DNA of 41,862 nucleotides from IMG/VR virus record IMGVR_UViG_3300045051_000115, positions 1 to 41,862 of that record; one strand, 5' to 3'. Within the stretch, counting starts at the first letter, position 1. Each line of letters opens with the position of its first letter. The notes under the pieces were generated by a model. That model was not told the origin of the DNA and searched no databases. It was given only the letters and a program-made list of their open reading frames with translations. Below, one piece after another: positions 1-41,862 of the stretch. Source of the stretch: a virus. The translations under genes and the position numbers were made by a program.

Positions 1-382
1 CAATTACAGCACGGCCGCATCGTCGGGCGAGGCCAGCAAGGCCGCATCGTCGGGCTACGCCAGCAAGGCCGCATCGTCGGGCGAGTCCAGCACGGCCGCA
101 TCGTCGGGCGAGTCCAGCAAGGCCGCATCGTCGGGCAATTACAGCAAGGCCGCATCGTCGGGCAATTACAGCAAGGCCGAGGCAAAAGGCGAGAAGACCG
201 TCGCGATGGTTGCCGGAGTTAACGGTCGTGCCCGTGCCGGTGAAAAAGGCGCGTTTGCGCTGGCGTGGGAAGACGCCGGGCAAATGCGGATCGCGGTTGG
301 AATTGTCGGAGAGAACGGGATCGAGGCCGATGTCTGGTACCAGGTCGACGCCTCCGGCGCTCTCGTAAAGGTGTCGCAATGA
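1..382 (+). CDS. C-terminal part of 27-nt-repeat protein (DUF7666-like), continued from window end
   Basis: This open frame enters from the window edge (codons start at position 2) and ends at TGA 380-382, giving 126 residues. It opens with nonapeptide repeats of the type GNYSTAASS, GEASKAASS and GESSTAASS, then a unique tail. The tail (GENGIEADVWYQVDASG and preceding hydrophobic strands) resembles, from memory, the C-terminal domain of the phage DUF7666 repeat family; its function is unknown. The 5' part of the same gene is at 41433-41862. The stop overlaps the ATG of the nuclease gene (ATGA), so the genes are translationally coupled. The number of repeats lost or duplicated at the junction cannot be read from this window. 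Confidence 0.8.
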   Translation, partial: NYSTAASSGEASKAASSGYASKAASSGESSTAASSGESSKAASSGNYSKAASSGNYSKAEAKGEKTVAMVAGVNGRARAGEKGAFALAWEDAGQMRIAVGIVGENGIEADVWYQVDASGALVKVSQ

Positions 383-1524
383 ACGCCCCCGAACGCTTCC
401 CCGCACACGCGCCACTACCGCCGTCCTCGGCCGCTCGTGGCGTGCAGTGCCCCGCCGGCTGGCGATTGATGCCGACGCGCTATCCCGAGGCCGATACGCC
501 CGCCAGCATGGAAGGCGACGCCGCGCACTGGGTCGCTTGCCGAGAGGCATCCGGCCAGGTGACGGCGCTCGGCGCGGCAGCTCCGAACGGTTTAACCGTC
601 TCCGACGAAATGGCCGAAGGCGCCGAGATATACGCCGACCACCTTCGCAGCCTTCGCTCCGTGTGTGACGAGCGCGGCTGGGCGTTGGAGCGCCGTCTTT
701 CCTGCGCCGTCGTGCATCCCGACAACTGGGGCACGCCCGATGCGCTCGGGTACGAGCCGGCGACGAATACGCTGCACGTTGTTGACTACAAATTCGGGCA
801 CCGCTTCGTCGCCGAGTTCGAGAACTGGCAACTGATCGACTACGCGGCCGGCGCGCTGGTCGGACTGCAGGGCAACGGCATCAACGCCCAGTCGTGCAAC
901 GTCGCGCTCCATATCGTCCAGCCGCGCAACTACCACCGCGACGGCCCGATCCGTACGTGGCGCACGACGGCCGCCGAATTGGCCGCATCGTACATTCCCC
1001 GTCTGATGACCGCCGCGACGGCAGCAATGCGCGACGACGCCCCGTGCGTAACCGGCCCGGAATGCGACTACTGCCCCGGCCGCCACGCGTGCGAAGCGGC
1101 CCAGCGTGCCGGCTTTGCCGCGTGTGAGATTTCGACCGGCTCGCTCCCGCTGGAAATGCCGCCCGAAGCAGCGGCGCGCGAACTGGCCCTGCTGCAACGC
1201 GCGGCCGACATGATCGAAGCGCGTCGCACGGGCTTGGTCGGGCAACTCCTCGCCGCGTGCAAGGCGGGCGTACGTGTTCCGGGTTTCCACGCCGAGCAGG
1301 GGTTGGGCCGCGAGCGTTGGGCACGGCCCCTGCCGGAAGTTCTCGCGCTCGGGCAAATGCTCGAAATCGACCTCGCTAAACCGGGCGCAATTACGCCAAA
1401 GCAGGCGATCAAGGCGGGCGTACCCGCCGAGGTCGTCCAAGCCTACAGCGAGACGCCACTCGGCGAAATCAAGCTCGTGTCGGACGGTACGCGTCTCTCT
1501 ACCGTGTTCGGCCGGGCCGCTTAA
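379..1524 (+). CDS. Cas4-like/DUF2800 PD-(D/E)XK nuclease
   Basis: 381 residues. It is probably a recombination or DNA-processing exonuclease of the early operon. The PD-(D/E)XK core is visible as GTPDALGY with Asp121, then VVDYK with Asp136 and Lys138, followed by Gln151 in an amphipathic helix. A cysteine cluster CVTGPECDYCPGRHAC at about residues 222-237 is typical of Cas4/AddB-type nucleases that bind an Fe-S cluster; the cluster itself is inferred. The ATG at 379 was chosen over the upstream in-frame ATG at 265 because it overlaps the previous stop as ATGA and the upstream 38 residues are arginine-rich frame-shadow sequence. DUF2800 genes next to DUF2815 and a family A polymerase are a recurring phage module. 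Confidence 0.85.
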   Translation: MNAPERFPAHAPLPPSSAARGVQCPAGWRLMPTRYPEADTPASMEGDAAHWVACREASGQVTALGAAAPNGLTVSDEMAEGAEIYADHLRSLRSVCDERGWALERRLSCAVVHPDNWGTPDALGYEPATNTLHVVDYKFGHRFVAEFENWQLIDYAAGALVGLQGNGINAQSCNVALHIVQPRNYHRDGPIRTWRTTAAELAASYIPRLMTAATAAMRDDAPCVTGPECDYCPGRHACEAAQRAGFAACEISTGSLPLEMPPEAAARELALLQRAADMIEARRTGLVGQLLAACKAGVRVPGFHAEQGLGRERWARPLPEVLALGQMLEIDLAKPGAITPKQAIKAGVPAEVVQAYSETPLGEIKLVSDGTRLSTVFGRAA

Positions 1525-1537
1525 CCCCCTCAACTCT

Positions 1538-1915
1538 AGGAGCGCAACACCATGAAATTGTCACGACTACGCGAGGCGAACGTGCGCCGATGCGAGCAGG
1601 TATTCCACCCGCTCAATGATTGGACCCCGACCGATTGGGCCTGCGCAATGGCGGGCGAGGCCGGAGAAGCCTGCAACGCGGTAAAGAAGCTGCGCCGGCT
1701 GGCGGATGGTACGAATACGGCGAAAGACCCGCAAACGGAGTCCGACGCGCTCAAGGCTATCGGCGCGGAATTGGCGGACACGATCATCTATTGCGATCTG
1801 CTCGCCGCGCGTCTCGGGCTCGACCTCAGCGTCGAGATTCAATCCAAATTTAACGAAGTGTCGCGCCGGATGAATTCCGACGTGCGCCTCTAACCTCAGG
1901 AGCGCAACACCATGA
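1538..1915 (+). repeat. 18-bp direct repeat carrying two ribosome binding sites
   Basis: The 18-bp string AGGAGCGCAACACCATGA occurs at 1538-1555 and again at 1898-1915. Each copy contains the Shine-Dalgarno (AGGAG), the 9-base spacer and the start codon, one for the MazG-like gene and one for the binding-protein gene. Identity is lost immediately downstream. The copy number suggests duplication of the initiation region or selection for equal translation rates. Confidence 0.85.
1552..1893 (+). CDS. MazG-like nucleotide pyrophosphohydrolase
   Basis: 113 residues, the usual size of single-domain phage MazG-like proteins. The family hydrolyses nucleoside triphosphates to monophosphates and pyrophosphate; in phages it may trim the nucleotide pool or lower ppGpp-type signals. 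The metal-binding motifs are visible: EAGEA with Glu36 and Glu39, and ELADTIIYCD with Glu73 and Asp76. A strong AGGAG lies 9 bases before the ATG. It sits between the nuclease and the single-strand-binding gene in the same direction. The family call is firm; the substrate is not known. Confidence 0.85.
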   Translation: MKLSRLREANVRRCEQVFHPLNDWTPTDWACAMAGEAGEACNAVKKLRRLADGTNTAKDPQTESDALKAIGAELADTIIYCDLLAARLGLDLSVEIQSKFNEVSRRMNSDVRL

Positions 1916-2745
1916 CAGATATTCTCCTCCCCGTCGGTCGCATGATTGGCGGATCGCTTTACAAGCTGCAGGTCAAGAAAGAAAAGAACGGGCAACCGAA
2001 GATCGGCAAAGACGGCCAGCCCGTCAAGGCGATCAACTTCGGCGTCGCCATCGCGAAGGCCGGCACGACGCACTGGGCGCAGACGCCGTGGGGCGCGCTG
2101 ATCCGTAGCGTCGGCCAGGCCGCGTTCGGAGCCTTGTGCGACGCTCCGACGTTCGCGTGGAAGATTACCGACGGCGACTCGGCCATCCCGAACAAGAAGG
2201 GCAACATTCCGAACCAGCAGGTCGGCTACCCCGGCCATTGGGTAATCTGGTTCTCGCAAGGCTGGGCGCCGCAACTCTGCGGCTCGAAGGGCGAGCCGAA
2301 CCCGGCGCTCTTGGTCGAGGATACGGTCCTCCCCGGCGATTGGGTGCAGGTCTTCGTCTCGGTCAAAGACAACAAGCCCAGCGAGTCGCCCGGCGTGTAT
2401 CTGAACCCGGTCGCCGTTGCGTTTGTCGGCAACCACCCCGAGGGCCGTATCGCAACGGCGACGGCGGTCGATACGACGGCGATCGGTTTCGGCCAAGTGT
2501 CCGCACCTGGCGCAGTGCTCGCCGCCCCGGTCGGCATGACGACGGCGGCCGCGGCTCCTCCGCCCGCTGCTGCCGCGGCGGCCGCTCCCCCGCCGCCGAA
2601 CCCGGCCTTCCTCGCCGTGCCGCCCGCGCCTCCCCCGGCGCGCGTTATGTTGCCCGCTGCCGGCGGCGTGTCGTACGAGGACCACATCAAGGCCGGGTGG
2701 AACGACGCCCTTTTGATCCAGCACGGCAAGATGGCGGCTGCGTAA
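1912..2745 (+). CDS. DUF2815-like single-stranded-DNA-binding protein
   Basis: 277 residues. The N-terminal two thirds (starting MTDILLPVGRMIGGSLY, later THWAQTPWGALIRSVG and PGVYLNPVAVAFVG) look like the phage DUF2815-type OB-fold proteins that accompany DUF2800 nucleases and family A polymerases. A flexible Ala/Pro-rich linker follows at about residues 200-250, then a short conserved tail (SYEDHIKAGWNDALLIQHGKM), like the linker plus interaction tip of single-strand-binding proteins. It shares its ribosome binding site sequence exactly with the gene before it. Role in replication is inferred from family and context. Confidence 0.75.
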   Translation: MTDILLPVGRMIGGSLYKLQVKKEKNGQPKIGKDGQPVKAINFGVAIAKAGTTHWAQTPWGALIRSVGQAAFGALCDAPTFAWKITDGDSAIPNKKGNIPNQQVGYPGHWVIWFSQGWAPQLCGSKGEPNPALLVEDTVLPGDWVQVFVSVKDNKPSESPGVYLNPVAVAFVGNHPEGRIATATAVDTTAIGFGQVSAPGAVLAAPVGMTTAAAAPPPAAAAAAAPPPPNPAFLAVPPAPPPARVMLPAAGGVSYEDHIKAGWNDALLIQHGKMAAA

Positions 2746-2940
2746 ATGGCCCGCTCGACCGCCTCCCCCGCTCGATTGACCGCCCAAGCGAACGCGGTCG
2801 TCGGTAACTGCGCCCGTTGCAAGTACGAGCCGCAGCCCGACGGGTTCGCGTGGGTGTTCCATCGGCAGGGACGGCGGGTCGGCCGCACGTACAACCCCGG
2901 CGAGGTTATCCGACTCGCGGAACGGATCGCGGCTCAGTAG
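2746..2940 (+). CDS. Small hypothetical phage protein
   Basis: 64 residues, starting directly after the stop of the binding-protein gene (TAA then ATG). It carries one CARC motif and is otherwise basic and polar, with no membrane segment. It is followed almost immediately by the polymerase N-half, so it belongs to the same transcript. I do not recognise a family; a nucleic-acid-binding or polymerase-accessory role would be a guess. Confidence 0.6.
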   Translation: MARSTASPARLTAQANAVVGNCARCKYEPQPDGFAWVFHRQGRRVGRTYNPGEVIRLAERIAAQ

Positions 2941-2942
2941 TG

Positions 2943-4280: not shown

Positions 4281-4281
4281 T

Positions 4282-4995
4282 ATGAGCACGCCACGCCACA
4301 TCGTCGGAGTATCGGGCGGCAAAGACAGCGTCGCGCTGGCGCTCGCCTTGCGAGGGGCGGAGCCGCGCGACTACGAATATATCTGCAATTGGACAGGCAA
4401 CGAACTGCCCGACATGGCCGCGCACATGGCGCGAATCGAGGCGCTACTCGGGAAGCCGATACGGCGCGTGACATACAGATTCGACCTTTTCGGACTGATA
4501 GATGAACTCGGCATGATCCCGAATTTTCGAGCCCGCTTCTGCACGCGGGTTCTCAAGATCGAACCGACGATAGCGTTCTTCGAGTCTCTGCCCCCCGAGT
4601 CCGTTCTATACGTCGGGCTCCGAGCCGACGAAGAAGAACGCAAAGGACTGTACGGCGACGACGTGCGCGTTCGCTACCCGATGCGCGAGTGGGGTTGGAC
4701 GGAGGCGGACGTGTGGCGATACCTAGATGCGCGCGGCATCTGTATCCCAAAGCGAACGAATTGCGCCGTTTGCTATGACCAGCAGATCGGGGAGTGGCAC
4801 GACCTATACCAAAATCATCCGGTCGAGTACGCCCGCGGAGTGGCTGCTGAAATCACGCACGGTCATACGTTCCGAAGCGATAAGCGCGACACCTGGCCGG
4901 CGTCCCTTCTCGAACTGGCGCAAGAGTTCGAGAGCGGCCGAAAACTTCGCAGGCGCGCGAAAGCCGCCCGCGCATGTCGGGTGTGCTCGGTATGA
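4282..4995 (+). CDS. PAPS-reductase-like PP-loop ATP pyrophosphatase, inserted between polymerase halves
   Basis: 237 residues. The PP-loop SGGKDS (residues 11-16) places it in the adenine nucleotide alpha-hydrolase/PAPS reductase superfamily, which activates substrates with ATP, often for sulfur chemistry. Other visible marks are CTRVLKIEP (Cys87), GLRADEEER near 112-120, and paired cysteines CAVC (161, 164) and CRVC (232, 235) that could hold zinc or an Fe-S cluster. Phage members are common and of unknown function; tRNA or DNA modification is possible. It begins one base after the stop of the polymerase N-half and its TGA overlaps the start of the C-half, so it splits the polymerase cleanly. 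Confidence 0.8.
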   Translation: MSTPRHIVGVSGGKDSVALALALRGAEPRDYEYICNWTGNELPDMAAHMARIEALLGKPIRRVTYRFDLFGLIDELGMIPNFRARFCTRVLKIEPTIAFFESLPPESVLYVGLRADEEERKGLYGDDVRVRYPMREWGWTEADVWRYLDARGICIPKRTNCAVCYDQQIGEWHDLYQNHPVEYARGVAAEITHGHTFRSDKRDTWPASLLELAQEFESGRKLRRRAKAARACRVCSV

Positions 4996-6119
4996 CCGCC
5001 ACCCGCACCGAATGGAACCACGACGCCGCGGAGTTTGCCCTGCGCGTCATCGCGCCCGGCTCGCTCGATCTGGTCGAGTGGTACTTCGGCGAGGCGATGC
5101 CGATCATATCGGGATGCCTGCGCGGACTCTTTGTCGCAGCGCCCGGCCACGATCTGATCTGCTCCGACTACTCGTCTATCGAGGCGGTCGTGCTGGCGGA
5201 ACTGGCCGGCGAGCAATGGCGGCAGGAAGTGTTTCGCACGCACGGCAAGATTTACGAAACGTCGGCCGCGAAGATCATCGGCGCAACGCTCGACGAGTTC
5301 ATGCGGCACGCCGGCTATAGCGACGCCCAGCTCGCAACGCCCGCGTGGTGGACGCTGAAACCGGCGAACCCCGGCAAGCACCACCCCAAACGGAAGATGG
5401 GCAAGGTCGCGGAGCTGGCGAGCGGATATGGCGGATGGGTCGGATCGTGGAAAGCGTTTGGCGCCGACGAGTTTCTGACCGACGACGAGATACGGCAAGC
5501 GGTCATCGCCTGGCGCGAAGCGAGCCCGGCCGTCGTCGAACTGTGGGGCGGACAGGAACGCAACTGGCGGCCGGAATTCTTCGGCATCGAAGGCGCGGCC
5601 GTGTCCGCGATCCTGCAGCCGGGCGTCGAGTTCTCGTACCAAGCGCCGAACAGTACCGACCGCGCGTCGTTCGTCATGCGCGGCGACGCGCTCTATTCGC
5701 AATTGCCCTCCGGCAAGTACCTGACCTACCACCGGCCGCGCCTGCGCCCCAGCGACCGCCGGCCGGGGACGTGGGCTATCTCGTACGAGGGATGGAACAC
5801 GAACCCGAAGAATGGGCCGGTCGGCTGGATCCGGATGGACACGTACGGCCCGCGCCTCGTCGAGAACCGCGTTCAAGCCGTCAGCCGCGAGATATTCAAG
5901 ATCGCGAGCATAGCGGCCGAGCGCGCGGGGTATCACGCCTCGGCGCCCGGCGGCTATCCGATCGTCCTGCACACGTACGACGAAATCACGGCCGAAGTGC
6001 CAGGAGGTACGGGGAGTGTCGAAGAATTCGAGCGAATCATGTCGACGATGCCCCCGTGGGCCGCGACATGGCCGGTAAAAGCAAAAGGGGGATGGCGTGG
6101 CAAACGATACAGAAAATAG
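4992..6119 (+). CDS. DNA polymerase family A, C-terminal fragment (catalytic half)
   Basis: 375 residues containing the catalytic core missing from 2943-4280. Motif A is CSDYSSIEA (catalytic Asp59), motif B is KMGKVAELASGYGG at about 135-150, and motif C is HTYDE near 326-330. ATG 4992 overlaps the PAPS-reductase stop as ATGA; an in-frame ATG at 4974 would overlap more and has no better ribosome site. The first residues (TEWNHDAAEFAL) match, from memory, the segment that directly follows the zinc-ribbon linker in intact phage homologues, so the break lies in a domain linker. The reading frame is the same as that of the N-half (4992 minus 2943 is a multiple of three). Confidence 0.85.
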   Translation: MTATRTEWNHDAAEFALRVIAPGSLDLVEWYFGEAMPIISGCLRGLFVAAPGHDLICSDYSSIEAVVLAELAGEQWRQEVFRTHGKIYETSAAKIIGATLDEFMRHAGYSDAQLATPAWWTLKPANPGKHHPKRKMGKVAELASGYGGWVGSWKAFGADEFLTDDEIRQAVIAWREASPAVVELWGGQERNWRPEFFGIEGAAVSAILQPGVEFSYQAPNSTDRASFVMRGDALYSQLPSGKYLTYHRPRLRPSDRRPGTWAISYEGWNTNPKNGPVGWIRMDTYGPRLVENRVQAVSREIFKIASIAAERAGYHASAPGGYPIVLHTYDEITAEVPGGTGSVEEFERIMSTMPPWAATWPVKAKGGWRGKRYRK

Positions 6120-6906: not shown

Positions 6907-7099
6907 CACGCTCACGCTCACGCCCGAGGAACTTATCGACCTCACCGGATGGCGCCAGCCGTCCCGGCAGATCGAATGGCTGACCCGTGCCGGCGTGCCC
7001 CATTTTGTGCGCCGCGACGGCCGACCGCGCGTCGTTCGGGCGGCGTTGTTACAATCGAAGGCCGAGGAATCGAACAGGCGCCCCCGTCTGAGGCTATGA
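6899..7099 (+). CDS. DUF4224 protein, integrase-associated
   Basis: 66 residues from GTG 6899. The sequence LTPEELIDLTGWRQPSRQIE followed by WLTRAGVP and RRDGRPRV matches the DUF4224 family, which in many phages lies immediately upstream of a tyrosine integrase. A role as a DNA-binding accessory factor such as an excisionase is often suspected but not proven. The TGA overlaps the integrase ATG (ATGA), so the two are translated together. Confidence 0.8.
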   Translation: MTDTLTLTPEELIDLTGWRQPSRQIEWLTRAGVPHFVRRDGRPRVVRAALLQSKAEESNRRPRLRL

Positions 7100-8046
7100 G
7101 CCGCGACCTACCGCCCCGAATGTATTGGAAAAACGGCGCGTATTGGTACGTGCGTCGGAACAAGTGGACGCGTCTGGCTCGCGAGCTTCCGGCCGCCCTG
7201 CGCGAGTACGCCAAGCTGGAAGAAATGGGCGGTGGCGGGCTCGACGAGATATTGCAAATCTTCCTTGACGACGCCGCCGGCCAGGTCAAGCCGTCATCCC
7301 TCAAGGGATACCGGATCTATGCGGACCACTTGTCCAAAGCGTTCGCCGAGTTCCGGCCGGACCAAGTGTCCGCGAGCGACGTCGCCCAATTCATGCGCGC
7401 GCACCGCGACCACCCAGCCAAGGCAAACGGGATGCGGACGGTCCTTAAGATCGCGTTCGACAAAGCGGTCCTGCTCGGACTGGCGAAGACGAACCCCGTA
7501 ACGAGCGTCCCGCGCTTCAAGGAAAAGAAGCGGACTCGCTACATTACCGACGCCGAGTATCGCGCGGTGCAGGCGAAGGCCCGCCCCCTGCTTGCCGTAA
7601 TCATCGAAGTGTGCTTGATGACGGGGCAGCGGATCGGCGACGTCCTCAAGATGCGCCGAACCGACCTTGACGACGAGGGCGTATTCGTAGAACAGGAGAA
7701 GACCGGGCACCGGCAGAAAATCGCCTGGTCGCCCGAACTGCGCGCGGCGATCGATGTGGCGAAGGCATACGGAGGCAACGTCAAGGGTGCGACAGTCCTT
7801 TGCGACCACCGCGGCGCCCCGGTCAAGTATTCGCGCGTGCACATGCAATGGGTCCGCGCCTGCATCCTCGCCGGGGTTGATGACGCCCATTTGCACGACT
7901 TGCGGGCGAAGGCCGGCAGCGACACGAAAGCGGAAAAAGGCGACTCTATGGCCCTGCTCGGGCACAAGTCCGAAGCGAGCCACGCGCGGTACATGCGGGG
8001 GCTCGACGTCCCGGTCGTACAGCCGACGCGCCGCCGCAAGTCTTAG
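7096..8046 (+). CDS. int: Tyrosine site-specific recombinase (phage integrase)
   Basis: 316 residues. It catalyses attP x attB recombination. The N-terminal part has an arm-binding-like segment and a SAM-like core-binding domain (about 50-145). The catalytic set is visible: Arg179 in TGQRIGDVL, Lys202 in EQEKTGH, His267 and Arg270 in HDLR, His290 in LLGHKS and the nucleophile Tyr299 in RYMRG. Start ATG 7096 is coupled to the DUF4224 stop; longer upstream starts would run through DUF4224. It is the last gene of the early right operon and no promoter of its own was seen, so its expression probably follows the early promoter. The attachment region should lie just downstream. Confidence 0.93.
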   Translation: MSRDLPPRMYWKNGAYWYVRRNKWTRLARELPAALREYAKLEEMGGGGLDEILQIFLDDAAGQVKPSSLKGYRIYADHLSKAFAEFRPDQVSASDVAQFMRAHRDHPAKANGMRTVLKIAFDKAVLLGLAKTNPVTSVPRFKEKKRTRYITDAEYRAVQAKARPLLAVIIEVCLMTGQRIGDVLKMRRTDLDDEGVFVEQEKTGHRQKIAWSPELRAAIDVAKAYGGNVKGATVLCDHRGAPVKYSRVHMQWVRACILAGVDDAHLHDLRAKAGSDTKAEKGDSMALLGHKSEASHARYMRGLDVPVVQPTRRRKS

Positions 8047-31302: not shown

Positions 31303-33597
31303 GCCGAACGCTGCGCCTTGCGCCTTGACGTAGTGGCGGACGATGTCGGCGGGATTCGTGAGGTTGTGTTCAAGGCGGCCGGCGCGCAGGTACAGGCGCG
31401 GCTTGCCACCATCGGGGGCGGCAATGACGGAAGGGGCACGGCCGCCGGCAAGATTGGCGTGCGGAACGTAGCCGAGCGAGCGCAGCGCTTCGACGAATCG
31501 CGCCGGGGGTAGCCGCCGCACGCCGGCCTGCTGCATCGCGCGGGAGAGCACGATAGACGACACCCATCCGTCACGCAGGCCGGGCGTGTCGCTGCCCTCG
31601 ATAATCTCGCGTATCTCCTGCTCGACCGAGCCAAGCGACACTTCGATTGCCTCGTCCGTACTGCTCGTGACGGGGGCGCGCATTAGGGTCGTGGCGGGGT
31701 TCAGTTCGTCGGGGATGGCATACGATGCCAGGTAGTGCGCTACGTGCGCGTAGCCGCCCGCGTCGGCCCACTCGTACAGGGTCGGAAAGTAGCGCCCCGA
31801 CATGCCGTCGCGGACGATGTCCTTGGCGCTTTGCTGCGCCGTGTGAAATACCGCGTACCGGCGCTCGTCTTCATCGATCGGCATGGCACCCTTCGGATTG
31901 ACGAACATCATAAAATTCGCGCGATTCTCGGCGGTGACTTGGTCCGCCCCCTTGCCCTGTATCTCGATCCGCTTGTTCGTGATGAGCGGCTTCAATTCTT
32001 CGAGCATGTCGCGCTTGTCGTGCGTCGATATTTCCTCAACGCAGATAAAGACCTTGCCACGCAGCCACCCGGTGAACTTGTTGCCGAGATCCGACGACTT
32101 CGGGCGATGGCTATAGCGGTCGCCGACGGCGTACTCGACGCAGTAGCCGAGGAAGCTCTTACCGTTCCCCTTGGCACCTTGCACCACCGGGCACCATTGG
32201 AACTTGCGGCCGGGATTCTGGATGACGGCCGCCATATACGCGAGGAGGATGCGGCGGTCGTGCTCGTCGGGCAGTAATCGCTGCAGCAGATCGAGGAACG
32301 GCCCCACGTCGCCGGGCGTGCGCAACGTCTCGACCGGCCACCAGATATTCGCCAGCAGGCGCCCCGCCTCTTGGACGACGGCGCCCGGCGTCAGCTCGGG
32401 CCGAAAGCATATGTCGTGGGCCTTGGGGAACTTAACGGCCTGACTCTTGGTAAATGCCTCCCATGCGCCCTTGGCCTGCTTCGCATTCTCGCGGTCCAGG
32501 GTGTAGCTGTACGCACCGTACCGGACGTCGAAGCGGGACTTATTGAGCAGATCCCCGCCCGGCACGAGCGCGGCGTCGAGCGACTGTATATACACGCAGC
32601 CGGCGAAGATATTGACTTGGTCGGCCGCGGTTGCAAACGTGTTGCCGTTGATGGGCTCGGCGACAGGTTGCGACGGGCACGCCGCGGAAGGCAACGGAGC
32701 GCCCCCGCCAAACCCGACGGCCGACAAGTCGATCGGCTTACGTGCGGCGGGATTGACCCATCCGTTACGCTGCGCCTTGGCAAAGATGCTGGCAAACCCG
32801 GTTCGGTCGCCGGTAAAGGTGCCCCAGCGCGTCAGATCCGCGTCGGGGTCATGCTTGGGGCTCGTGGCGCTCCATTCGGACCAAAGCGCGAAGCCGACCT
32901 CGCCCAGCGAGACGAGCGATTGCCCGACGGCAATCCACTCGTAATAGTCATCCGCCGGCACGGCCTCCAACGCGCTGCGCAGGTCCGCCAATACCTCGGG
33001 CGTCGCCTCGCGGTACTCGTGCGGCGTGGCTGCGCTGGGCGCCGCGGTCGCCGGATAGATGGCGGGCAGGTCGGCCAGCATGTCGAGCGGCTGGCCCGCG
33101 ACGGGCAGCGCCACGTACGGCACGCCGGCCACCTTGCCCACGTAGTAGGTCTGCGACAAGGTAAAGGACTCATGCGCCAGAATGCCGCCGAGCGCCCCAT
33201 TCAGCCGCGCCAGAAAGTCACGGCGAGCGGTCGGCGGGTACTCTCGGGAGAGCGGCGCGAGGACACGCCAGCGCGGCGCCTCGGGCGTATGGCTGGGGGA
33301 CGTATAGACGACCGCCTCGATACCGGCAAACTGCAGCAGCATCGCCGCGGCTTCTGGCGTAACCTCGCCCGCGTCGTAATCGCCCTCAAGGCCCGACACG
33401 GCAAGCACGTTGGAGTCGTGGCGGAGTGCCCCCTTTGCCGTGCGTATCGTGCCAAAGGCGGCCAGCTTGATAAGCGGGCAGTCTCGCTTGGTCGGGTACT
33501 CGGGCGGATTGAGGCAGGATTGCACCAGCGCCGGCCAGTCGATCGCGTGGGCCTGTAGCTCGCCGGCTAGTACGGTTGGGAAAATAGTAACTCTCAC
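31288..33597 (-). CDS. Primase-helicase (AEP-like primase, PriCT and SF3-type helicase)
   Basis: 769 residues from GTG 33597 (GTGA overlap). The N-terminal part is archaeo-eukaryotic-primase-like: GDYDAG at about 72-77, SPSHTPEAPRWR near 100, SQTYYVG near 145. A PriCT-type segment follows (DYYEWIAVGQSLVSLGEVGF). The helicase has Walker A GAKGNGKS near 475, Walker B VFICVEEIS near 515 and NFMMFVNPKGAM as a later motif, of the DUF5906/virulence-associated-E type. It would initiate and unwind at the phage origin about 500 bp away. Last gene of the early left operon. Confidence 0.85.
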   Translation of the reverse strand: MRVTIFPTVLAGELQAHAIDWPALVQSCLNPPEYPTKRDCPLIKLAAFGTIRTAKGALRHDSNVLAVSGLEGDYDAGEVTPEAAAMLLQFAGIEAVVYTSPSHTPEAPRWRVLAPLSREYPPTARRDFLARLNGALGGILAHESFTLSQTYYVGKVAGVPYVALPVAGQPLDMLADLPAIYPATAAPSAATPHEYREATPEVLADLRSALEAVPADDYYEWIAVGQSLVSLGEVGFALWSEWSATSPKHDPDADLTRWGTFTGDRTGFASIFAKAQRNGWVNPAARKPIDLSAVGFGGGAPLPSAACPSQPVAEPINGNTFATAADQVNIFAGCVYIQSLDAALVPGGDLLNKSRFDVRYGAYSYTLDRENAKQAKGAWEAFTKSQAVKFPKAHDICFRPELTPGAVVQEAGRLLANIWWPVETLRTPGDVGPFLDLLQRLLPDEHDRRILLAYMAAVIQNPGRKFQWCPVVQGAKGNGKSFLGYCVEYAVGDRYSHRPKSSDLGNKFTGWLRGKVFICVEEISTHDKRDMLEELKPLITNKRIEIQGKGADQVTAENRANFMMFVNPKGAMPIDEDERRYAVFHTAQQSAKDIVRDGMSGRYFPTLYEWADAGGYAHVAHYLASYAIPDELNPATTLMRAPVTSSTDEAIEVSLGSVEQEIREIIEGSDTPGLRDGWVSSIVLSRAMQQAGVRRLPPARFVEALRSLGYVPHANLAGGRAPSVIAAPDGGKPRLYLRAGRLEHNLTNPADIVRHYVKAQGAAFGLQAA

Positions 33598-34469
33598 GCT
33601 GCCATCCCCTCATGCGCTGCGCGGTAGTCGTCCCAAGTGCGCGACTTAAATTCCGCTTTGTGATTAACCCAGCGCGCGAAGCGTCGCTGTTCTTTTGTCG
33701 GCGGCGATCCGTCCGGCGCGATGTACGGCTGCGCGAACGGGTCGACGTCTATTCCCTTGAGAAACCGGACGCGCTCGACCGCATCGTCGACGTCTTTGAC
33801 GAGGCAGTAGCAGGAGTACCGCCGCGGCGTCGCGTTGTGCCAGCGAAGCCACCGTACGGCCTTCCCTATCGCCGGCATCATCCCGGCATGGTCGCAAGCC
33901 AGGCGGATCGGCTTTAGCCATTTCAGCGCGGCGAGCCGGCGCGCAATGCCGTCGTCGATCAGTCGGGCGTCGAGCCCTTGATTGAAATCGACGCGGACGC
34001 CGAGCCGCGCCATCTTCTCTATCTGAGCGATTCCGTGCGGATGCTGTAGGACGTTGTTATCGAGGAGCACGACGTCACGGTGCCGCAAGAATTCCTCTAC
34101 GTCCGCGTGAGGATGCGCCAGGCCTTCTTTGTCGGGAACGCCGCACCAAGTACAGTTTCTATTGCACCCCCGCGTCAGGAAACCGACGCTGTAGTCGATT
34201 CCGTAGAGTGAATAGTCGGGGCACGCGTGCTCGACGTCTTCCGGCAGCTCGCCTTTTAAGCCGTACCCCGTTCCGCCGCAGATCGTGACGGCCGGCAGGT
34301 TGTCGTCCGTCGGCGTGAAACTGAAAACCTTCGAGGAATAGACGACGTCGAACGATTGCGCTGGGTCGAACATTTCGACGTCATGCCCCGACGCCTTGTG
34401 CGCCGCGGAGAGTTTCATCAGCGCGAGATTGGGAAAACCCGTCGCGTCGTCGTGCATGGCGATTCTCAC
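33594..34469 (-). CDS. Radical SAM protein
   Basis: 291 residues from GTG 34469, which overlaps the membrane-protein stop (GTGA); a longer frame to 34595 has no support. GFLTRGCNRNCTWCGVP gives the CxxxCxxC cluster (Cys102, 106, 109) that binds a 4Fe-4S cluster and S-adenosylmethionine. The N-terminal 60 residues (GFPNLALMKLSAAHKASGHD, YSSKVFSF) resemble a B12-binding-type Rossmann part. DFNQGLDARLIDDGIARRL is conserved in a phage-specific branch. The substrate is unknown; nucleic acid modification is one possibility. Confidence 0.85.
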   Translation of the reverse strand: MRIAMHDDATGFPNLALMKLSAAHKASGHDVEMFDPAQSFDVVYSSKVFSFTPTDDNLPAVTICGGTGYGLKGELPEDVEHACPDYSLYGIDYSVGFLTRGCNRNCTWCGVPDKEGLAHPHADVEEFLRHRDVVLLDNNVLQHPHGIAQIEKMARLGVRVDFNQGLDARLIDDGIARRLAALKWLKPIRLACDHAGMMPAIGKAVRWLRWHNATPRRYSCYCLVKDVDDAVERVRFLKGIDVDPFAQPYIAPDGSPPTKEQRRFARWVNHKAEFKSRTWDDYRAAHEGMAA

Positions 34470-34735
34470 GACCGCGCCCGCCGATAGCGGAGAAGCAGCG
34501 CGATCCATAACGCGTTCGCGGCGACGATCGAGAGGCCGCCGACGAAGCTCCACCACTGCCCGAGGCTCGGATAGTAGTAGTAGTAGAGATTCCACACGCC
34601 CCAGCCGGTAAAGAATATCGTACTCGGGATGCTGACCCCAGCGACAGACCTATCGCGATAGACGGCGCGGCAATGGTCGAGCACGAAGACCCCGCCCAGC
34701 AACTCGAACGCTCCGTTGACGAGGTCGGGCGTCAT
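34466..34735 (-). CDS. Small membrane protein
   Basis: 89 residues from ATG 34735, coupled to the nuclease stop (ATGA). Two or three hydrophobic segments: LVNGAFELLGGVFVLD (weak), STIFFTGWGVWNLYYYYYP, and WWSFVGGLSIVAANALWIAL, then a basic end (RYRRARS). The aromatic-rich YYYYYPSLGQWW is striking. Similar small proteins occur in phage early regions next to nucleases and radical SAM genes; function unknown. The longer upstream frame overlaps the nuclease and is shadow. Confidence 0.75.
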   Translation of the reverse strand: MTPDLVNGAFELLGGVFVLDHCRAVYRDRSVAGVSIPSTIFFTGWGVWNLYYYYYPSLGQWWSFVGGLSIVAANALWIALLLRYRRARS

Positions 34736-35202
34736 GCGTCGTCGCCGGTAGTGAACCGAGCATCGCCCCCGAGGGCGTTGACCAGTTCGATAAATTTCAA
34801 CTGCGCCAGCTCGCGCGCCGTTCCTGCGAAGCGCCAGCCGGCCTTTTTGGCCTCGCGCGCCGCAAACTGCCCGAAGACCTGGCCGATCATGTCGGGCGTA
34901 ATGAGCCGGCGTCGTATGCCGATCAGATCGGACGACTTGAGGACGGAATTGATCGCGCCGGAATCGTTCGCCAGGCCGAAGCGGATCGGCACGCCCCGCG
35001 CATCGGGCAGTACGCCGACGTTGTTGCGCCAGAGTCGGTCGCCTTGCTTGCTCCAATCGACGCGCAACTGCGACTGTATGGCGGCCTCGCTCGCGCCGGG
35101 CGTGGCGGACGGCTCGGTCGGTGCGTCGGCCAGCATCAGGGCGCGCAGGTCGTCCAGGGCTCCCGCGGACACGCCCCAGCGTTGCGCCCATCGGTTAAGC
35201 AC
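34732..35202 (-). CDS. VRR-NUC nuclease
   Basis: 156 residues from GTG 35202. Residues about 45-150 hold the VRR-NUC form of the PD-(D/E)XK fold: EAAIQSQLRVDWSKQG, then SSDLIGIRRR and a C-terminal helix pair (REAKKAGWRFAGTARELAQL, KFIELVNALGGDARF). The family is found with phage helicases and is thought to be structure-selective, for example on branched DNA. It sits between the GIY-YIG gene and the membrane protein in the replication operon, matching the common phage trio of helicase, VRR-NUC and primase. Confidence 0.85.
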   Translation of the reverse strand: MLNRWAQRWGVSAGALDDLRALMLADAPTEPSATPGASEAAIQSQLRVDWSKQGDRLWRNNVGVLPDARGVPIRFGLANDSGAINSVLKSSDLIGIRRRLITPDMIGQVFGQFAAREAKKAGWRFAGTARELAQLKFIELVNALGGDARFTTGDDA

Positions 35203-35923
35203 GACGCGCCCTCACGGCTTCCGTCCGGCAGGTGTTGGAGCAGTACTTCCCCCGCCCCCTCGCCGCCTCCGACAGTTTTACGTCAAAGGATTTTTCGCAC
35301 CACAAGCACGTCGCGGGGGTCTTCTTCGAGGTCGCGGCGCCTTGGCATTTATTCGAGCAATAGACCCCCTCCCCTCGGCCAGCGTTACCCCGAGTCACTT
35401 TAAACAGCGCTCCGCAGGCGTTGCATACACGGTCGACGCGGCTCACTTTTGCGGCGTCGCAACAGACCTTCGAGCAGTACTTCGCTTTCCCTTTCGCCAG
35501 GTCGCTAGGCTTTGCATCGAAACTCTTGCCGCAGTGCTGACACGGGCGGGGTTTTCTGGTTCTAAGGTAGGGGCGCTCTTTTTGGGCCAGGCCAGCCGCG
35601 GACATTTTCGCGCGTGATTCGGGCGAATGCTTATGACCGGTAAGGCCGTCTCCTCCGATGGCCAAGTTGTACCCCTCCGGCGCTCGCGTCCCGTGCTCGA
35701 AGATCGCGAGGGTTTCCAAAGTGCACAGCTCGTTCCAGTCGTCGGACTCGGCGAGGATCGTCAGTACGGCATCCGACTTCCCGTATTTTTTAAAGGCTTT
35801 CCCGAGCGGCGTTTTGGCTCCGGGGGCGCTGTGCTTTTTCCAGCGAGACGCCGCGGACACGGACGAAATGCCGATGTAGCTTTTCCCGCTCGTCTTAAAC
35901 GTGATTTTATAGAGTTGCCCCAT
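35195..35923 (-). CDS. GIY-YIG nuclease with three tandem zinc-finger modules
   Basis: 242 residues from ATG 35923, with GGAGAGGG upstream; the 22 residues before it look non-coding. The GIY-YIG domain covers about 1-90 (LYKITFKTSGKSYIGISSV, TLETLAIFEHGTRAPEGYNL). A NUMOD3-type segment follows (GHKHSPESRAKMSAAGLAQK). Three zinc modules then repeat, each C-x2-C-x3F...YCS-x3-C: CQHCGKSF, CNACGALF, CLWCEKSF. This is the build of a homing endonuclease (nuclease plus DNA-reading modules) standing free between host genes. No intron is visible around it. Confidence 0.85.
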   Translation of the reverse strand: MGQLYKITFKTSGKSYIGISSVSAASRWKKHSAPGAKTPLGKAFKKYGKSDAVLTILAESDDWNELCTLETLAIFEHGTRAPEGYNLAIGGDGLTGHKHSPESRAKMSAAGLAQKERPYLRTRKPRPCQHCGKSFDAKPSDLAKGKAKYCSKVCCDAAKVSRVDRVCNACGALFKVTRGNAGRGEGVYCSNKCQGAATSKKTPATCLWCEKSFDVKLSEAARGRGKYCSNTCRTEAVRARRA

Positions 35924-35993
35924 TACGCGGCCCTCTCCAACAACGCTACGGCCAGCGCGGCGGGCGGTATGGCGTGGCGGATGGCCCAAGCGG

Positions 35994-37091
35994 TCAGCAT
36001 GAGAGGTAGGCCCGTATCACTTCGGCCGCGACTTGCGGGACAATGGCGTTGCCGTAGGCGCGCAGGCGTCCCACTCGGCCGGATACCCCATGAGCCAGCG
36101 GGAATGTGCCGGGTTCAACTGGCCGGGCTTTCCCGTCTCGGCAGGGGAGCCAATCACAAGCGCCCCAACTTGACGAGGCAATTGGTCCAATCGACTGCGA
36201 CCGTCCGCTCGTTCCGTCGCCATCCCCGGCGAATCCTTCCAGTCGCGAGCCGAGGGCGTCACCTTGGGTGACGCCCCTTGCGCTTGCATCGGTAGCCCGT
36301 TCCTCGCGTCCGGCGCAAGCTCCCCGCGTTTCTCCGAGTCGTTCGCCCGAGGAGTTGCCCACGATGCAAGGCTCGCGCATTCCGCCAGCCCTGTTTGCCC
36401 GGTGTGGTTCGTACCCGCCGCCGTCCGCCCCGCATGCTCCGCTTCTGCGGATCGAGGCGTCGGCCACGCCGCGAGTTGTGTCGCTTGCCCCAAGTTCAGC
36501 CCGAAGCCGTTCCCGTTCTTGTGCTCCGCCTTCAACCTCTCGCGTCGCGCTTCCCACGTCGAGCCCCCGTCGTTCTGCGGCTCCGCATTTGGAGTCGGCC
36601 ACGAACCACAAGCGCTGTCGGATATGCGGTGCGCCGACGCCCGCAGCAGGGATACCGACCGGCCCGAGGGCGTAGCCGATTCCTTCCATGTCAGCCTGAA
36701 CAAGGTCGAGCCAGCCGTGCCTAATCGCCGCATCAACTTGCTCACCCATGACGACGGGGGGGGCACACTGAGAGATAAGGTGGAACCATGCCGGCCATAG
36801 ATGCCGCTCGTCAGCAACCCCAGCGCCTCGGCCTGCGACGCTGAAAGGTTGGCAGGGGCAAGAGCCTGTCCAAACTGGGCGAGAGTCAGGCCACCCAGCG
36901 AGTCGCAGGGCAACGGACCATCCGCCGATGCCGGCGAAGAAATGGCATTGTGTGAAGCCGCGCAGGTCGTCGGGCCGTACATCCTTAATGCTCCTCTCGT
37001 CTACGACACCCGGCGCGATATGGCCGGCATCGATCAGGTTCCGCAGCCATTGCGCGGCGTAGGGGTCTATCTCGTTGTAATAGGCGGTCAT
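35994..37091 (-). CDS. DNA cytosine-C5 methyltransferase
   Basis: 365 residues. It transfers a methyl group to C5 of cytosine. Motif I is FAGIGG (52-57), motif IV SCPCQPFS with catalytic Cys80, motif VI GEQV (116-119, in place of ENV), motif VIII HIRQRLWFV (Arg158, Arg160), and motif X YGNAIVPQVAAEVI near the end. Residues about 170-310 are the variable recognition part. No restriction partner is next to it; it probably protects the phage from host restriction. ATG 37091 overlaps the helicase stop. Most of the gene is overlapped by another frame of the same strand (36017-36982). A C8 tract lies at 36763-36756. Confidence 0.9.
   Translation of the reverse strand: MTAYYNEIDPYAAQWLRNLIDAGHIAPGVVDERSIKDVRPDDLRGFTQCHFFAGIGGWSVALRLAGWPDSRPVWTGSCPCQPFSVAGRGAGVADERHLWPAWFHLISQCAPPVVMGEQVDAAIRHGWLDLVQADMEGIGYALGPVGIPAAGVGAPHIRQRLWFVADSKCGAAERRGLDVGSATREVEGGAQERERLRAELGASDTTRGVADASIRRSGACGADGGGYEPHRANRAGGMREPCIVGNSSGERLGETRGACAGREERATDASARGVTQGDALGSRLEGFAGDGDGTSGRSQSIGPIASSSWGACDWLPCRDGKARPVEPGTFPLAHGVSGRVGRLRAYGNAIVPQVAAEVIRAYLSC
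36017..36982 (-). CDS. Overprinted conserved-looking protein inside the methyltransferase gene
   Basis: 321 residues in a different frame of the same strand. It has its own Shine-Dalgarno AGAGGAG 8 bases before ATG 36982. The sequence looks like a phage protein I have seen stand alone: LGLLTSGIYGRHGSTLS, GSTLFRLTWKESATPSGRS, repeated WPTP/WATP motifs (SWPTPNAE, AWPTPRSA, SWATPRAN), and an end NPAHSRWLMGYPAEWDACAP. Function unknown; it may act with the methyltransferase. Frame-shadow origin is the alternative, but a strong ribosome site, the absence of stops over 966 bases and recurring motifs argue for a real gene. Confidence 0.65.
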   Translation of the reverse strand: MYGPTTCAASHNAISSPASADGPLPCDSLGGLTLAQFGQALAPANLSASQAEALGLLTSGIYGRHGSTLSLSVPPPSSWVSKLMRRLGTAGSTLFRLTWKESATPSGRSVSLLRASAHRISDSACGSWPTPNAEPQNDGGSTWEARRERLKAEHKNGNGFGLNLGQATQLAAWPTPRSAEAEHAGRTAAGTNHTGQTGLAECASLASWATPRANDSEKRGELAPDARNGLPMQAQGASPKVTPSARDWKDSPGMATERADGRSRLDQLPRQVGALVIGSPAETGKPGQLNPAHSRWLMGYPAEWDACAPTATPLSRKSRPK

Positions 37092-38680
37092 ACGCCCAAC
37101 CTCGCCCGCAGCGCCTCGGCCTCGGCGCGGCCCAGCGTTTGCGCCGTCGCCACGTCCACGCCGTACGTGAGATAGAAGCGACGTTGCGCCGTATAGACGT
37201 CATCGCCGGCCGCCGCACGGTATCCGCCCCACTGAGCCATCGCCGCGCGCAGCGCCTCCTGCGCCTCCTGCTTCTCGCGCTGCCGAGCGACGAGCGATTT
37301 AGCGATAAGCGGATCGGGATGGAACGCCGGGGCCGCGTCAATCTCGCCGCGCAGCCGCGCCAGCGCTTCGGGCGTCAGTTCCGCCAGGTCGCCGTCCACT
37401 TGCTCGGGGCTACTCCGCCCCACCGGCTCGACCGTGTAGGAGCAATACGGGCAGGTCGGCCCGAGAACGCGGTCGTACGTGCCGGCGCATTCGGGGCAAG
37501 TCCGCACGGGTACGACGTCCGACTTGCTGGCACTGTGGCGCTCTCGCCGGTCGAGACTCCATTCGCGCGGCGCATCGGGCAGCCCATGCCGGTGCACGTT
37601 GCCGACGTGGTCGATAATGAGGGCGTGCGCCTTGCCCTCCATCGGACGCAGCGAGCGGCCGAACTGCTGGGCATACAGCGCGAACGATTGCGTCGGCCGC
37701 GCCATCGATACGCACTCAAGCGCCGGAAGGTCGAAGCCCTCGCCGAACAGATCCACGTTGACGAGTTGCTTTACCTCGCCGCGGGCGAAGCGCCGCAAGA
37801 TCGAGGCGCGGCCCGCGTCCGGCGTCTTTGCCGACACGACCTCGGCCGGCACGCCTGCCGCTCGGTACGCCTGCGCAATCTCGCCCGCATGTTCGACGTC
37901 AACCGCGAACGTGACGCCCAGCTTACCGGCGGCGATCTTGAGGTAATGCGCGACGACGTCGCCTAGGATATGCGAGGCGTGCACCGCCTTGCGGAGCGGA
38001 TCGGGCGAGAAGTCGCCGCCCGCACTGATCCCGACGGCCGACAAGTCCAAGTCAGACGGGGGCGCAAATATGCGGTAGTCGGTGAGATACCCCTGCTGTA
38101 TGAGCGAGCGCATCCCCGGCGCTTGAACCATGACGTCCATAAGCCCGTCGGCGTGCCGCCCGAGCCCTTTACCGTCGGCACGTACCGGCGTCGCCGTGAC
38201 GCCCAGCCCGTGAGCATTAGGAAACATGGCCGAGGCGGTCCCCCACTTGTTTTCCGCGAGTAGATGGTGCGCCTCGTCTTGGACCCATAGCCCGACCCGC
38301 GCGAACCACGGGTCGGCGGCCTCCATGCGGATAAGCGTATCGACGCCGGCCGCCGCGCACCTGGAGCTCGGGTCGTAATAGCTGCGGCCCGTCTCGGCAA
38401 TATGGATCGAGACGCACGTACGCACGAGCGCCGGCTGTCCGATGAGACGATGGCGGACGCCGTTACGTGCGAGCGCGAGCGATATTTGCGACACCAGCTC
38501 GGAGCGGTGGGCAATCGCTACGCTCGCGCCGGGGTACTCGTGGAGAATGTCGGAGAATAGTACGGTCTTGCCGGAACCCGTCGGCGCGACGGCCAGGACG
38601 TTGCGCGCCCCCGCTTGCCACGCCGCGTAGACGTCAGACTTGAGGGCCGCTTGGAACGGCCGAAGCTGGACGGATGCCAT
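37088..38680 (-). CDS. SF2 DEAH-type helicase with C-terminal zinc ribbon
   Basis: 530 residues. Motif I APTGSGKT (32-39), DEAH (135-138), motif III TATP (162-165), then the second RecA-like domain with FGEGFDLPALECVSM and the arginine-finger motif QQFGRSLRP near 355. A zinc ribbon CPECAGTYDR...CPYC lies at about 405-430, and a charged helical tail follows. The build is that of phage replication or recombination helicases that are encoded with VRR-NUC and primase genes. It probably restarts or opens DNA forks; the exact substrate is not known. Confidence 0.9.
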   Translation of the reverse strand: MASVQLRPFQAALKSDVYAAWQAGARNVLAVAPTGSGKTVLFSDILHEYPGASVAIAHRSELVSQISLALARNGVRHRLIGQPALVRTCVSIHIAETGRSYYDPSSRCAAAGVDTLIRMEAADPWFARVGLWVQDEAHHLLAENKWGTASAMFPNAHGLGVTATPVRADGKGLGRHADGLMDVMVQAPGMRSLIQQGYLTDYRIFAPPSDLDLSAVGISAGGDFSPDPLRKAVHASHILGDVVAHYLKIAAGKLGVTFAVDVEHAGEIAQAYRAAGVPAEVVSAKTPDAGRASILRRFARGEVKQLVNVDLFGEGFDLPALECVSMARPTQSFALYAQQFGRSLRPMEGKAHALIIDHVGNVHRHGLPDAPREWSLDRRERHSASKSDVVPVRTCPECAGTYDRVLGPTCPYCSYTVEPVGRSSPEQVDGDLAELTPEALARLRGEIDAAPAFHPDPLIAKSLVARQREKQEAQEALRAAMAQWGGYRAAAGDDVYTAQRRFYLTYGVDVATAQTLGRAEAEALRARLGV

Positions 38681-40567: not shown

Positions 40568-41431
40568 ATGCCTGTCACGATTACCATTACCGACCCGAGC
40601 AGTACGGCCCGCGCCGACCTGTTGGCGGTCGCGGACATGATGTACGACCTCGCCGGCTACGGCAAAAAGGTCCACCCCACGCTCGAGACGGCGCTGCAGG
40701 AGTACGGCGCCGCCACCGAGACGCCCGCCCCGGTTGCTACAGCCGTCGCCGCTGCCGAAGCGCTCGGTGTATTTACTGAAACGGTCGCCGCAAACACCGA
40801 GGACGAGTGCGTCGTCGTTCATCGCGACGACCGCCCCGTCTTCGACACGAATGCGATATTTGGCTCGACGCCCGCCGCGGCCGCGGTTGCCACGACTGCC
40901 GCACCGCCCCCGCCGGCCGACGCCACGACTGCCGCCGCACCGCCCCCGCCCGTCCTCGCCGTCGAGCGTGACGCCGCCGGCTACCCGTACGATGGCCGCA
41001 TTCATTCGTCGAGCAAGGCGAAGGTCTCCGACGGTACTTGGCGCATGAAGCGCGGCGTCGACCCGGCCATCGTCGCAACGGTGCAGGCCGAATTGCGCGG
41101 CGCGATGGCCGCGCCGGCCCCCGCCTCGTTCGTCCCGCCGGTTCCGGGCGTCACTGCTGCGCCGCCCGCTCCTCCGGCACCTCCCGCACCGGCCGCCGCT
41201 GCGCCAGTGCCGCCCGCTCCTCCGGCCCCCGCCGCGCCTGCTGCGCCGGCTGCAGAAGGGCCGATGACGTTCCCCGTACTTATGCAGCGAATCACGACGG
41301 GCGTTGCGTCCGGTGCGCTGAATCAGCAAAGCGTACTCGCCGCCGTGCAGGGCGCCGGGCTCGCCTCTCTACCCCTGCTCGCCACGCGGCCCGATCTGGT
41401 CCCGACCGTAGCGGCTGCGCTCGGGGTCTGA
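40568..41431 (+). CDS. Conserved early phage protein with Pro/Ala-rich linkers
   Basis: 287 residues. A short N-terminal domain (PVTITITDPSSTARADLLAV ... MMYDLAGYG) is followed by an Ala/Thr/Pro linker, then the recognisable conserved core AGYPYDGRIHSSSKAKVSDG followed by TWRMKRGVDPAIV, a signature seen in many Burkholderia and Pseudomonas phage early proteins. A second Pro/Ala linker and a C-terminal helical part end the chain (QRITTGVASGALNQQSVLAA). Function is unknown; the place at the head of a replication operon suggests DNA metabolism. Confidence 0.7.
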   Translation: MPVTITITDPSSTARADLLAVADMMYDLAGYGKKVHPTLETALQEYGAATETPAPVATAVAAAEALGVFTETVAANTEDECVVVHRDDRPVFDTNAIFGSTPAAAAVATTAAPPPPADATTAAAPPPPVLAVERDAAGYPYDGRIHSSSKAKVSDGTWRMKRGVDPAIVATVQAELRGAMAAPAPASFVPPVPGVTAAPPAPPAPPAPAAAAPVPPAPPAPAAPAAPAAEGPMTFPVLMQRITTGVASGALNQQSVLAAVQGAGLASLPLLATRPDLVPTVAAALGV

Positions 41432-41432
41432 C

Positions 41433-41862
41433 ATGCAAATCACTAAGCAGCTTCTCAAGGATTGGGGAGCTTGTCGCGACGGATACGGCTGGTTCGTCGA
41501 CAAGTTTCCGCAGGGGGCGCCCTATGCCGAAGTCCTCGGCGCGCTGCGCAGCGACAAGCGCTACGACGACTCGCGCTGGCTGGCTAACCGGGTCTTCGCG
41601 TCCTTCACGACGAACCCCGACCAGATCGCCCCGACCGTCGAGTCGGAGGTCAAGCAGGCGATCGAAGAAACGAAGGATTCGCCGAATTCGGCGTCGGGCG
41701 AGTCCAGCACGGCCGCATCGTCGGGCAATTACAGCACGGCCGCATCGTCGGGCGAGTCCAGCACGGCCGCATCGTCGGGCGAGTCCAGCACGGCCGCATC
41801 GTCGGGCGAGGCCAGCAAGGCCGCATCGTCGGGCTACGCCAGCAAGGCCGCATCGTCGGGCG
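41433..41862 (+). CDS. N-terminal part of the 27-nt-repeat protein, runs off window end
   Basis: 143 complete codons before the edge. The unique head (about 85 residues: KQLLKDWGACRDGYGWFVDK, FPQGAPYAEVLGALRSD, RWLANRVFASF) matches from memory the N-terminal domain of phage DUF7666-type repeat proteins. Nonapeptide repeats follow from about residue 87. The remaining repeats and the C-terminal domain are at 1-382. The frame is kept only if the missing or overlapping segment obeys codon phase: merging the 77-base match 41786-41862 with 7-83 keeps the frame. Confidence 0.8.
   Translation, partial: MQITKQLLKDWGACRDGYGWFVDKFPQGAPYAEVLGALRSDKRYDDSRWLANRVFASFTTNPDQIAPTVESEVKQAIEETKDSPNSASGESSTAASSGNYSTAASSGESSTAASSGESSTAASSGEASKAASSGYASKAASSG
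41691..41862 (+). repeat. 27-nt tandem repeat array (end part; continues at 1-178)
   Basis: Units of 27 bases built on GCCGCATCGTCGGGC encode x-x-S-T/K-A-A-S-S-G, where x-x is ES, NY, EA or YA. At least six units are here and six more at 1-178. Nucleotide identity between units is very high, with changes confined to the two variable codons and one T/K codon, which points to recent expansion or ongoing recombination. The window edges lie in this array. Confidence 0.9.

Follow-up and report, generated by a model that had tools for sequence, protein, structure and literature searches.

A phage genome record very probably opened by its assembler within a variable-number tandem-repeat gene

In the Bordetella phages BPP-1 and BIP-1, 'variable region 2' (VR2) of Bbp36 is a variable-number in-frame repeat in a phage accessory gene. 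In the passages of PMC2884959 that cite Liu et al. 2004, bbp36 is described as carrying 9-20 copies depending on the isolate, as not essential for growth, and as having no apparent tie to host tropism. We analysed the entire IMG/VR record IMGVR_UViG_3300045051_000115 (41,862 b; hereafter, the window), both ends of which lie in a gene with similar features, namely (i) an in-frame tandem repeat, of a kind whose copy number varies, in a probable phage accessory gene, (ii) two variable residues per unit, and (iii) a related C-terminal domain. Judged by sequence, the repeat-gene family of the window includes the BPP-1 Bbp36 VR2, and the window array, an in-frame tandem repeat with two variable residues in each unit, is of the type found in Bbp36 and ES18 gp53. 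The two genes differ in that Bbp36 units span 24 b with a GTATAG core, whereas those of the window span 27 b with an AASSG core; in that the N-terminal part of Bbp36 is of the DUF7666 kind, unlike that of the window; and in that bbp36 lies downstream of the cI repressor gene, whereas the window gene belongs to an exonuclease operon.

Further comparisons gave the same picture of shared and divergent parts. The phrog_4433 proteins (ES18 gp53 and those of Pseudomonas phages phi1 and YA3 and of Hollowayvirus) share the 9-residue repeats and a homologous C-terminal domain with the window gene, whereas their N-terminal domain is of the DUF7666 type, for which neither window half nor the intact ortholog described below had a Pfam match (PF24703); moreover, the ES18 gp53 gene is placed between antitermination and recombination genes, unlike that of the window. 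The window halves align almost end to end, and in the same domain order, with YdhT (NCBIfam NF007410, PRK09946), and the loci L038 and L084 align over nearly the whole of this model. However, the halves score 41.7 and 48.7 bits, below the curated 300-bit cut-off, and we therefore rejected a YdhT equivalog assignment; the intact ortholog scored 98.3 bits, and whole relatives scored at most 149 bits. The YdhT-like protein of Komagataeibacter phage phiKX1 (LC644975) shares the N-terminal motif REWGACSDGRDWFREKFPQG, the repeats, and the C-terminal domain, but its repeat core is ARAGFSG or similar, and a phage antirepressor gene adjoins it, unlike in the window. A literature search returned no paper on DUF7666 and, for phage YdhT, none that was of use.

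Two halves of one gene at the window edges

IMG/VR classes the record as 'linear' because no end repeat was detected. A preliminary description of the window had stated that a frame runs off the right edge within 27-b repeats, enters at the left edge in the same repeats, and closes at 380-382, that 77 b recur at the two edges with six differing bases outside them, and that a direct join breaks the frame whereas merging the overlap keeps it; each of these statements was reproduced exactly. The right frame stays open for 143 codons, from 41433 to the window edge, and the left frame runs from base 2 to its stop (Table 1). The 77-b match is exact, but the bases next to it disagree (CGAGTC at 41780-41785 versus CAATTA at the left edge), and it begins at base 7 instead of base 1, so that it is not the flush exact terminal repeat that the usual test for a circular contig looks for. 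The frame is lost when the two ends are joined directly, but a single open frame (MQITKQ...KVSQ) results once bases 1-6 are removed and the 77-b overlap is collapsed. Within the 41,862 b, the pair at 7 and 41786 is the only repeated 77-mer, there are no repeated 78-mers, and Tandem Repeats Finder reported 27-b arrays nowhere other than at the two edges.

Table 1. Features at and around the window edges, with the evidence for each
Feature	Coordinates	Strand	Basis
CAATTA flanking the overlap; last bases of an NY unit, giving a unit order absent from the right edge	1..6	+	sequence comparison
Repeat gene, C-terminal half, open at the left edge, stop at 380-382	2..382	+	ORF; NF007410 148-268; phrog_4433
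77-b stretch identical to 41786-41862	7..83	+	sequence identity
Left array of 27-b units, 6.4 copies: EASK YASK ESST ESSK NYSK NYSK	7..179	+	Tandem Repeats Finder
DUF2800 / phrog_69 exonuclease gene, directly downstream; ATG overlaps the repeat-gene stop	379..1524	+	profile match
Gp2.5-like single-strand annealing protein gene (phrog_7011), in the exonuclease block	1912..2745	+	profile match
Helicase gene (phrog_16), far side of the junction	37088..38680	-	divergent neighbour of the exonuclease gene in 71/73 relatives
phrog_11133 gene, directly preceding the repeat gene; in relatives, its homolog is next to the exonuclease gene	40568..41431	+	profile match, synteny
Repeat gene, N-terminal half, open at the right edge	41433..41862	+	ORF; NF007410 2-136
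Right array of 27-b units, 6.3 copies: ESST NYST ESST ESST EASK YASK	41692..41862	+	Tandem Repeats Finder
77-b stretch identical to 7-83; final 77-mer of the contig	41786..41862	+	sequence identity

Profile comparisons show, at the level of sequence, that the two window edges are two halves of a single gene. In the NF007410 model, which has 269 positions, the right half is followed in order by the left half (Table 1); likewise, in the 312 positions of phrog_4433, the right half covers 113-190 and the left half covers 189-311, with an E value of 5.8e-12 for the C-terminal domain. Because both halves match consecutive parts of the same models, the match between the edges is no chance event. Tblastn matches of the C-terminal domain to ES18, phi1, and BPP-1 were also obtained. 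Moreover, a related locus, L003, has an intact ortholog (2512-3204; 230 aa) that contains 9.0 units of 27 b and is 52% identical to the window gene in the N-terminal part and 79% identical in the C-terminal domain; this gene starts 2 b past its upstream gene and ends 2 b ahead of a phrog_69 exonuclease gene.

Searches of IMG/VR for a close relative of the upstream gene or the N-terminal part gave none. No junction-spanning contig and no second member of the window's own species were found, and the copy-number variation described below was seen in Pseudomonas and Bordetella members. Megablast of the window against phages gave a single useful match, to a methyltransferase.

Neighbouring genes and closure of the genome

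To place the edges in the context of related phages, we used 91 IMG/VR loci collected via the helicase or the polymerase. Helicase and exonuclease genes are both present in 73 of these loci and are divergent in 71 of the 73, with a median 5'-5' distance of 1245 b across the divergent loci and with the repeat gene not between them. A homolog of the upstream gene is found in 70 of the 73 loci, mostly ending within ~60 b of the exonuclease gene. In locus L007, for example, the homologs of the genes on either side of the window junction overlap by 1 b, the repeat gene is absent, and the helicase lies on one flank, with the annealing protein and the polymerase on the other. Shewanella phage SppYZU01 and Acinetobacter phage Scuro have this same gene order, with small gaps, again in the absence of the repeat gene. 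That the genes at the two window ends stand back to back in 71 of these 73 loci shows the ends to be adjacent in a genome that closes on itself. The preliminary description had called the genome probably circular or circularly permuted; the adjacency of its ends was borne out, while a circular genome and a permuted linear one look alike in sequence.

The C-terminal domain occurs in only 2 of the 91 loci, in neither case in the slot occupied in the window: L214 carries it past the polymerase, and L207 next to the helicase. The repeat gene would thus be an optional cassette within a conserved block that crosses the window edge, and it may be dispensable.

Among the other genes of the window, an integrase gene (6949-8043) points to a temperate phage. 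No host flanking DNA was recognised in the window, and a scan of GTDB genomes with the exonuclease, carried out to find a host, gave no relative. The family A DNA polymerase (2817-6116, + strand) is split into two ORFs (2817-4277 and 4974-6116), which match phrog_17 positions 675-989 and then 994-1232, with a PAPS-reductase-like ORF (4282-4992) between them; the corresponding parts are nearly contiguous in 12 relatives. On the - strand (33597-37091), a homing-endonuclease-like gene (35198-35989) adjoins a DNA methyltransferase gene (35997-37091), and a radical SAM protein gene is found at 33597-34595.

Assembly breaks and array versions in the repeat-gene family

We surveyed 80 IMG/VR loci with the C-terminal domain, many of which are related Pseudomonas prophages and not all of which are independent lineages. 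A contig end falls within 500 b upstream of this domain, on the array side, in 38 of the 80 loci, and within 500 b downstream of it in 2 (sign-test p 1.5e-9, which overstates independence because of the related Pseudomonas prophages); the truncated contigs start in or next to the array. The far end was read in ten cut contigs, three of which have the N-terminal half there (G004, 40.8 kb; G006, 40.5 kb; G007, 68.4 kb), while it was not found at the other end of G003, G005, G008, G009, G010, G012, and G013. G014 (43.4 kb), of the helicase/exonuclease group, is a fourth genome-sized contig with both ends in the gene, and its 54-b tail match is non-flush, like that of the window. Some contigs cut in the repeat gene are thus not circular.

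Deposited phage genomes behave in the same way. The records of MK511048 and MK511042 both start and finish within the gene, their termini overlapping exactly over 127 b, and PP740689 has a 103-b terminal overlap within it. The records of MK511047, PSA04, UPF_BP1, PAShipCat1, and phiKX2 (the sister record of phiKX1) are likewise opened in the gene, the tail of MK511047 being non-flush. Of 27 phage lineages, 6 have record ends within the gene, against 0.54 expected with the lineages grouped by hand and the gene length set at 1 kb. The break is therefore a recurrent assembly artefact of this repeat-gene family. Both 127 and 77 are standard SPAdes k values, and overlaps of these lengths fit contigs that end at an assembler k-mer vertex, as we infer for the window contig at its terminal 77-mer.

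The window thus very probably represents a complete, self-closing phage genome of ~41.8 kb, opened by the assembler inside the gene with the 9-residue (27-b) tandem repeat. The explanation is an ordinary one, in which a variable-number repeat gene of a known kind interrupts the assembly: near-identical units would recombine or slip, the reads would then hold repeated k-mers or multiple array versions, and the de Bruijn graph would branch at the 77-base vertex, where the contig would stop. A cut of the assembly by the repeat, as the preliminary description had proposed, is supported by the intact ortholog, by the synteny across the junction in 71 of 73 relatives and in annotated phages, and by the recurrence of the break in further contigs and in deposited phage records; its doubt about the copy number shown was also justified, given that the 77-b merge yields one possible array and not a proven one.

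Copy number and unit order change among otherwise near-identical phages of the family. One pair of Pseudomonas loci shares flanks of 99.75% and 100% identity while having 6 units in one locus and 26 in the other, and the Bordetella phages BPP-1, BIP-1, and vB_BbrP_003 have 13.8, 19.9, and 6.8 copies, respectively. The two variable residues of each unit are drawn from a small shared alphabet (D/N/Y/E, then Y/Q/R/S/A/W), with the order shuffled among unrelated phages, as seen, for instance, in the arrays of L011, L012, L058, L070, L095, L027, and L028. L013 (Acinetobacter phage fEg-Aba01, 3432-4252) has an apparent frameshift in the repeats, such that its annotated ORF stops before most of the C-terminal domain match, which lies in another frame, and the copy in phage Emek is annotated 'ES18 gp53 with frameshift'.

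In the window, merging the overlap gives an array of 10 units (ESST NYST ESST ESST EASK YASK ESST ESSK NYSK NYSK), which we regard as provisional. Exact repeats in this array do not exceed 53 b, and a k=77 assembler should therefore have passed through it. Further, CAATTA belongs to a normal NY unit and gives the order NYST-EASK, which is absent from the right edge. The stop at the 77-mer and these six bases together suggest a second context for the 77-mer, either in a longer array or in a second array version in the population, which the reads probably held. These two versions are sub-cases of the closing genome and not alternatives to it, and the weights that we give them are to be read in that way. 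A longer array, of at least 13 units (the right arm, an unseen middle, and the left arm) with the 77-mer twice per genome, is a serious possibility that falls short of an even chance: it would explain the unit order given by bases 1-6 and the stop that the merged array would not cause, and arrays of the family reach 28 units, but the nearest ortholog has 9.0 units, and a mixed population accounts for the same facts. A mixture of phages with different arrays, in which CAATTA would come from a minor version lacking two units, is a tentative second choice. The order NYST-EASK-YASK is exactly what remains once the two ESST units are taken out of the right arm, array length and order differ between close relatives, and non-flush tails are also found in MK511047 and G014; nevertheless, the mixture and a longer single array predict the same data here.

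Outside the closing genome, two further readings were weighed. It is very improbable that the record is a fragment with two different repeat genes at its ends. In some IMG/VR contigs, the cut in the gene is confined to one end, and a phage could in principle carry two such genes, but the halves fit one model in order, their flanking genes are neighbours in relatives, the window (41.9 kb) matches relatives in length (41.6-43.6 kb), and head, tail, packaging, lysis, and replication genes are all present in it. Even less credible is a true direct terminal repeat of 77 b marking the fixed physical ends of a linear genome inside the gene, which we rejected on synteny and on the non-flush overlap: there is indeed an exact repeat near both termini, but its six outer bases are unmatched, it is part of the 27-b array, such ends would split a gene that is intact in L003, the flanking block runs on without interruption in 71 of the 73 relatives, and the same break recurs in unrelated phages.

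Predicted protein and meaning for the family

With 22 related sequences aligned, the fold of the L003 ortholog was predicted with a mean pLDDT of 79 (~70 in the array part), as against a poor prediction (pLDDT 47) when the alignment was left out. The model has five helices, short strands at nine-residue intervals (93-97, 102-106, 111-115, and onwards), and a confident beta-rich C-terminal domain. The protein is thus predicted to consist of a helical N-terminal part, a beta-solenoid with one short strand per 9-residue unit, and the beta-rich C-terminal domain. Searches of the PDB gave only repeat-driven or chance matches by sequence and nothing at E <= 0.001 by fold, and consequently no function follows from structure; matches among viral folds were unnamed or DUF7666 phage proteins. 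Collagen/Scl matches of relatives fell below the cut-offs and were attributed to repeat composition. In MK511047, MK511048, MK511050, MK511042, MZ089728, and further records, C-terminal fragments of the gene bear the annotation 'flagellar hook-length control protein', and 'c-type lectin precursor' or 'collagen-like' is used for other family members; our searches gave no support for any of these names.

Going by the model and the gene's position, the product is probably an optional accessory protein with a beta-solenoid of variable length, encoded in a DNA-recombination operon. In the window, this operon contains the exonuclease and the Gp2.5-like annealing protein. Copies in relatives sit near repressor or antitermination genes, and a role in recombination is therefore not implied by the operon.

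Near-identical units with a small two-residue alphabet would let recombination quickly yield new lengths and unit orders, and a single population would then hold different array versions side by side, as hinted by bases 1-6. It appears unlikely on present evidence that the family represents a widespread beta-solenoid system of varying length and a selected diversity mechanism, rather than merely an unstable repeat. For the record itself, classed 'linear' with ends that adjoin, we suggest treatment as a complete phage genome that closes circularly and contains a single uncertain array. Of the contigs with the repeat-gene family that we examined, about half end inside the gene, and short-read phage catalogues would tend to label such genomes as linear or incomplete, with wrong copy numbers and truncated proteins likely for this family. 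Studies of length variation in the repeat family therefore need long reads.
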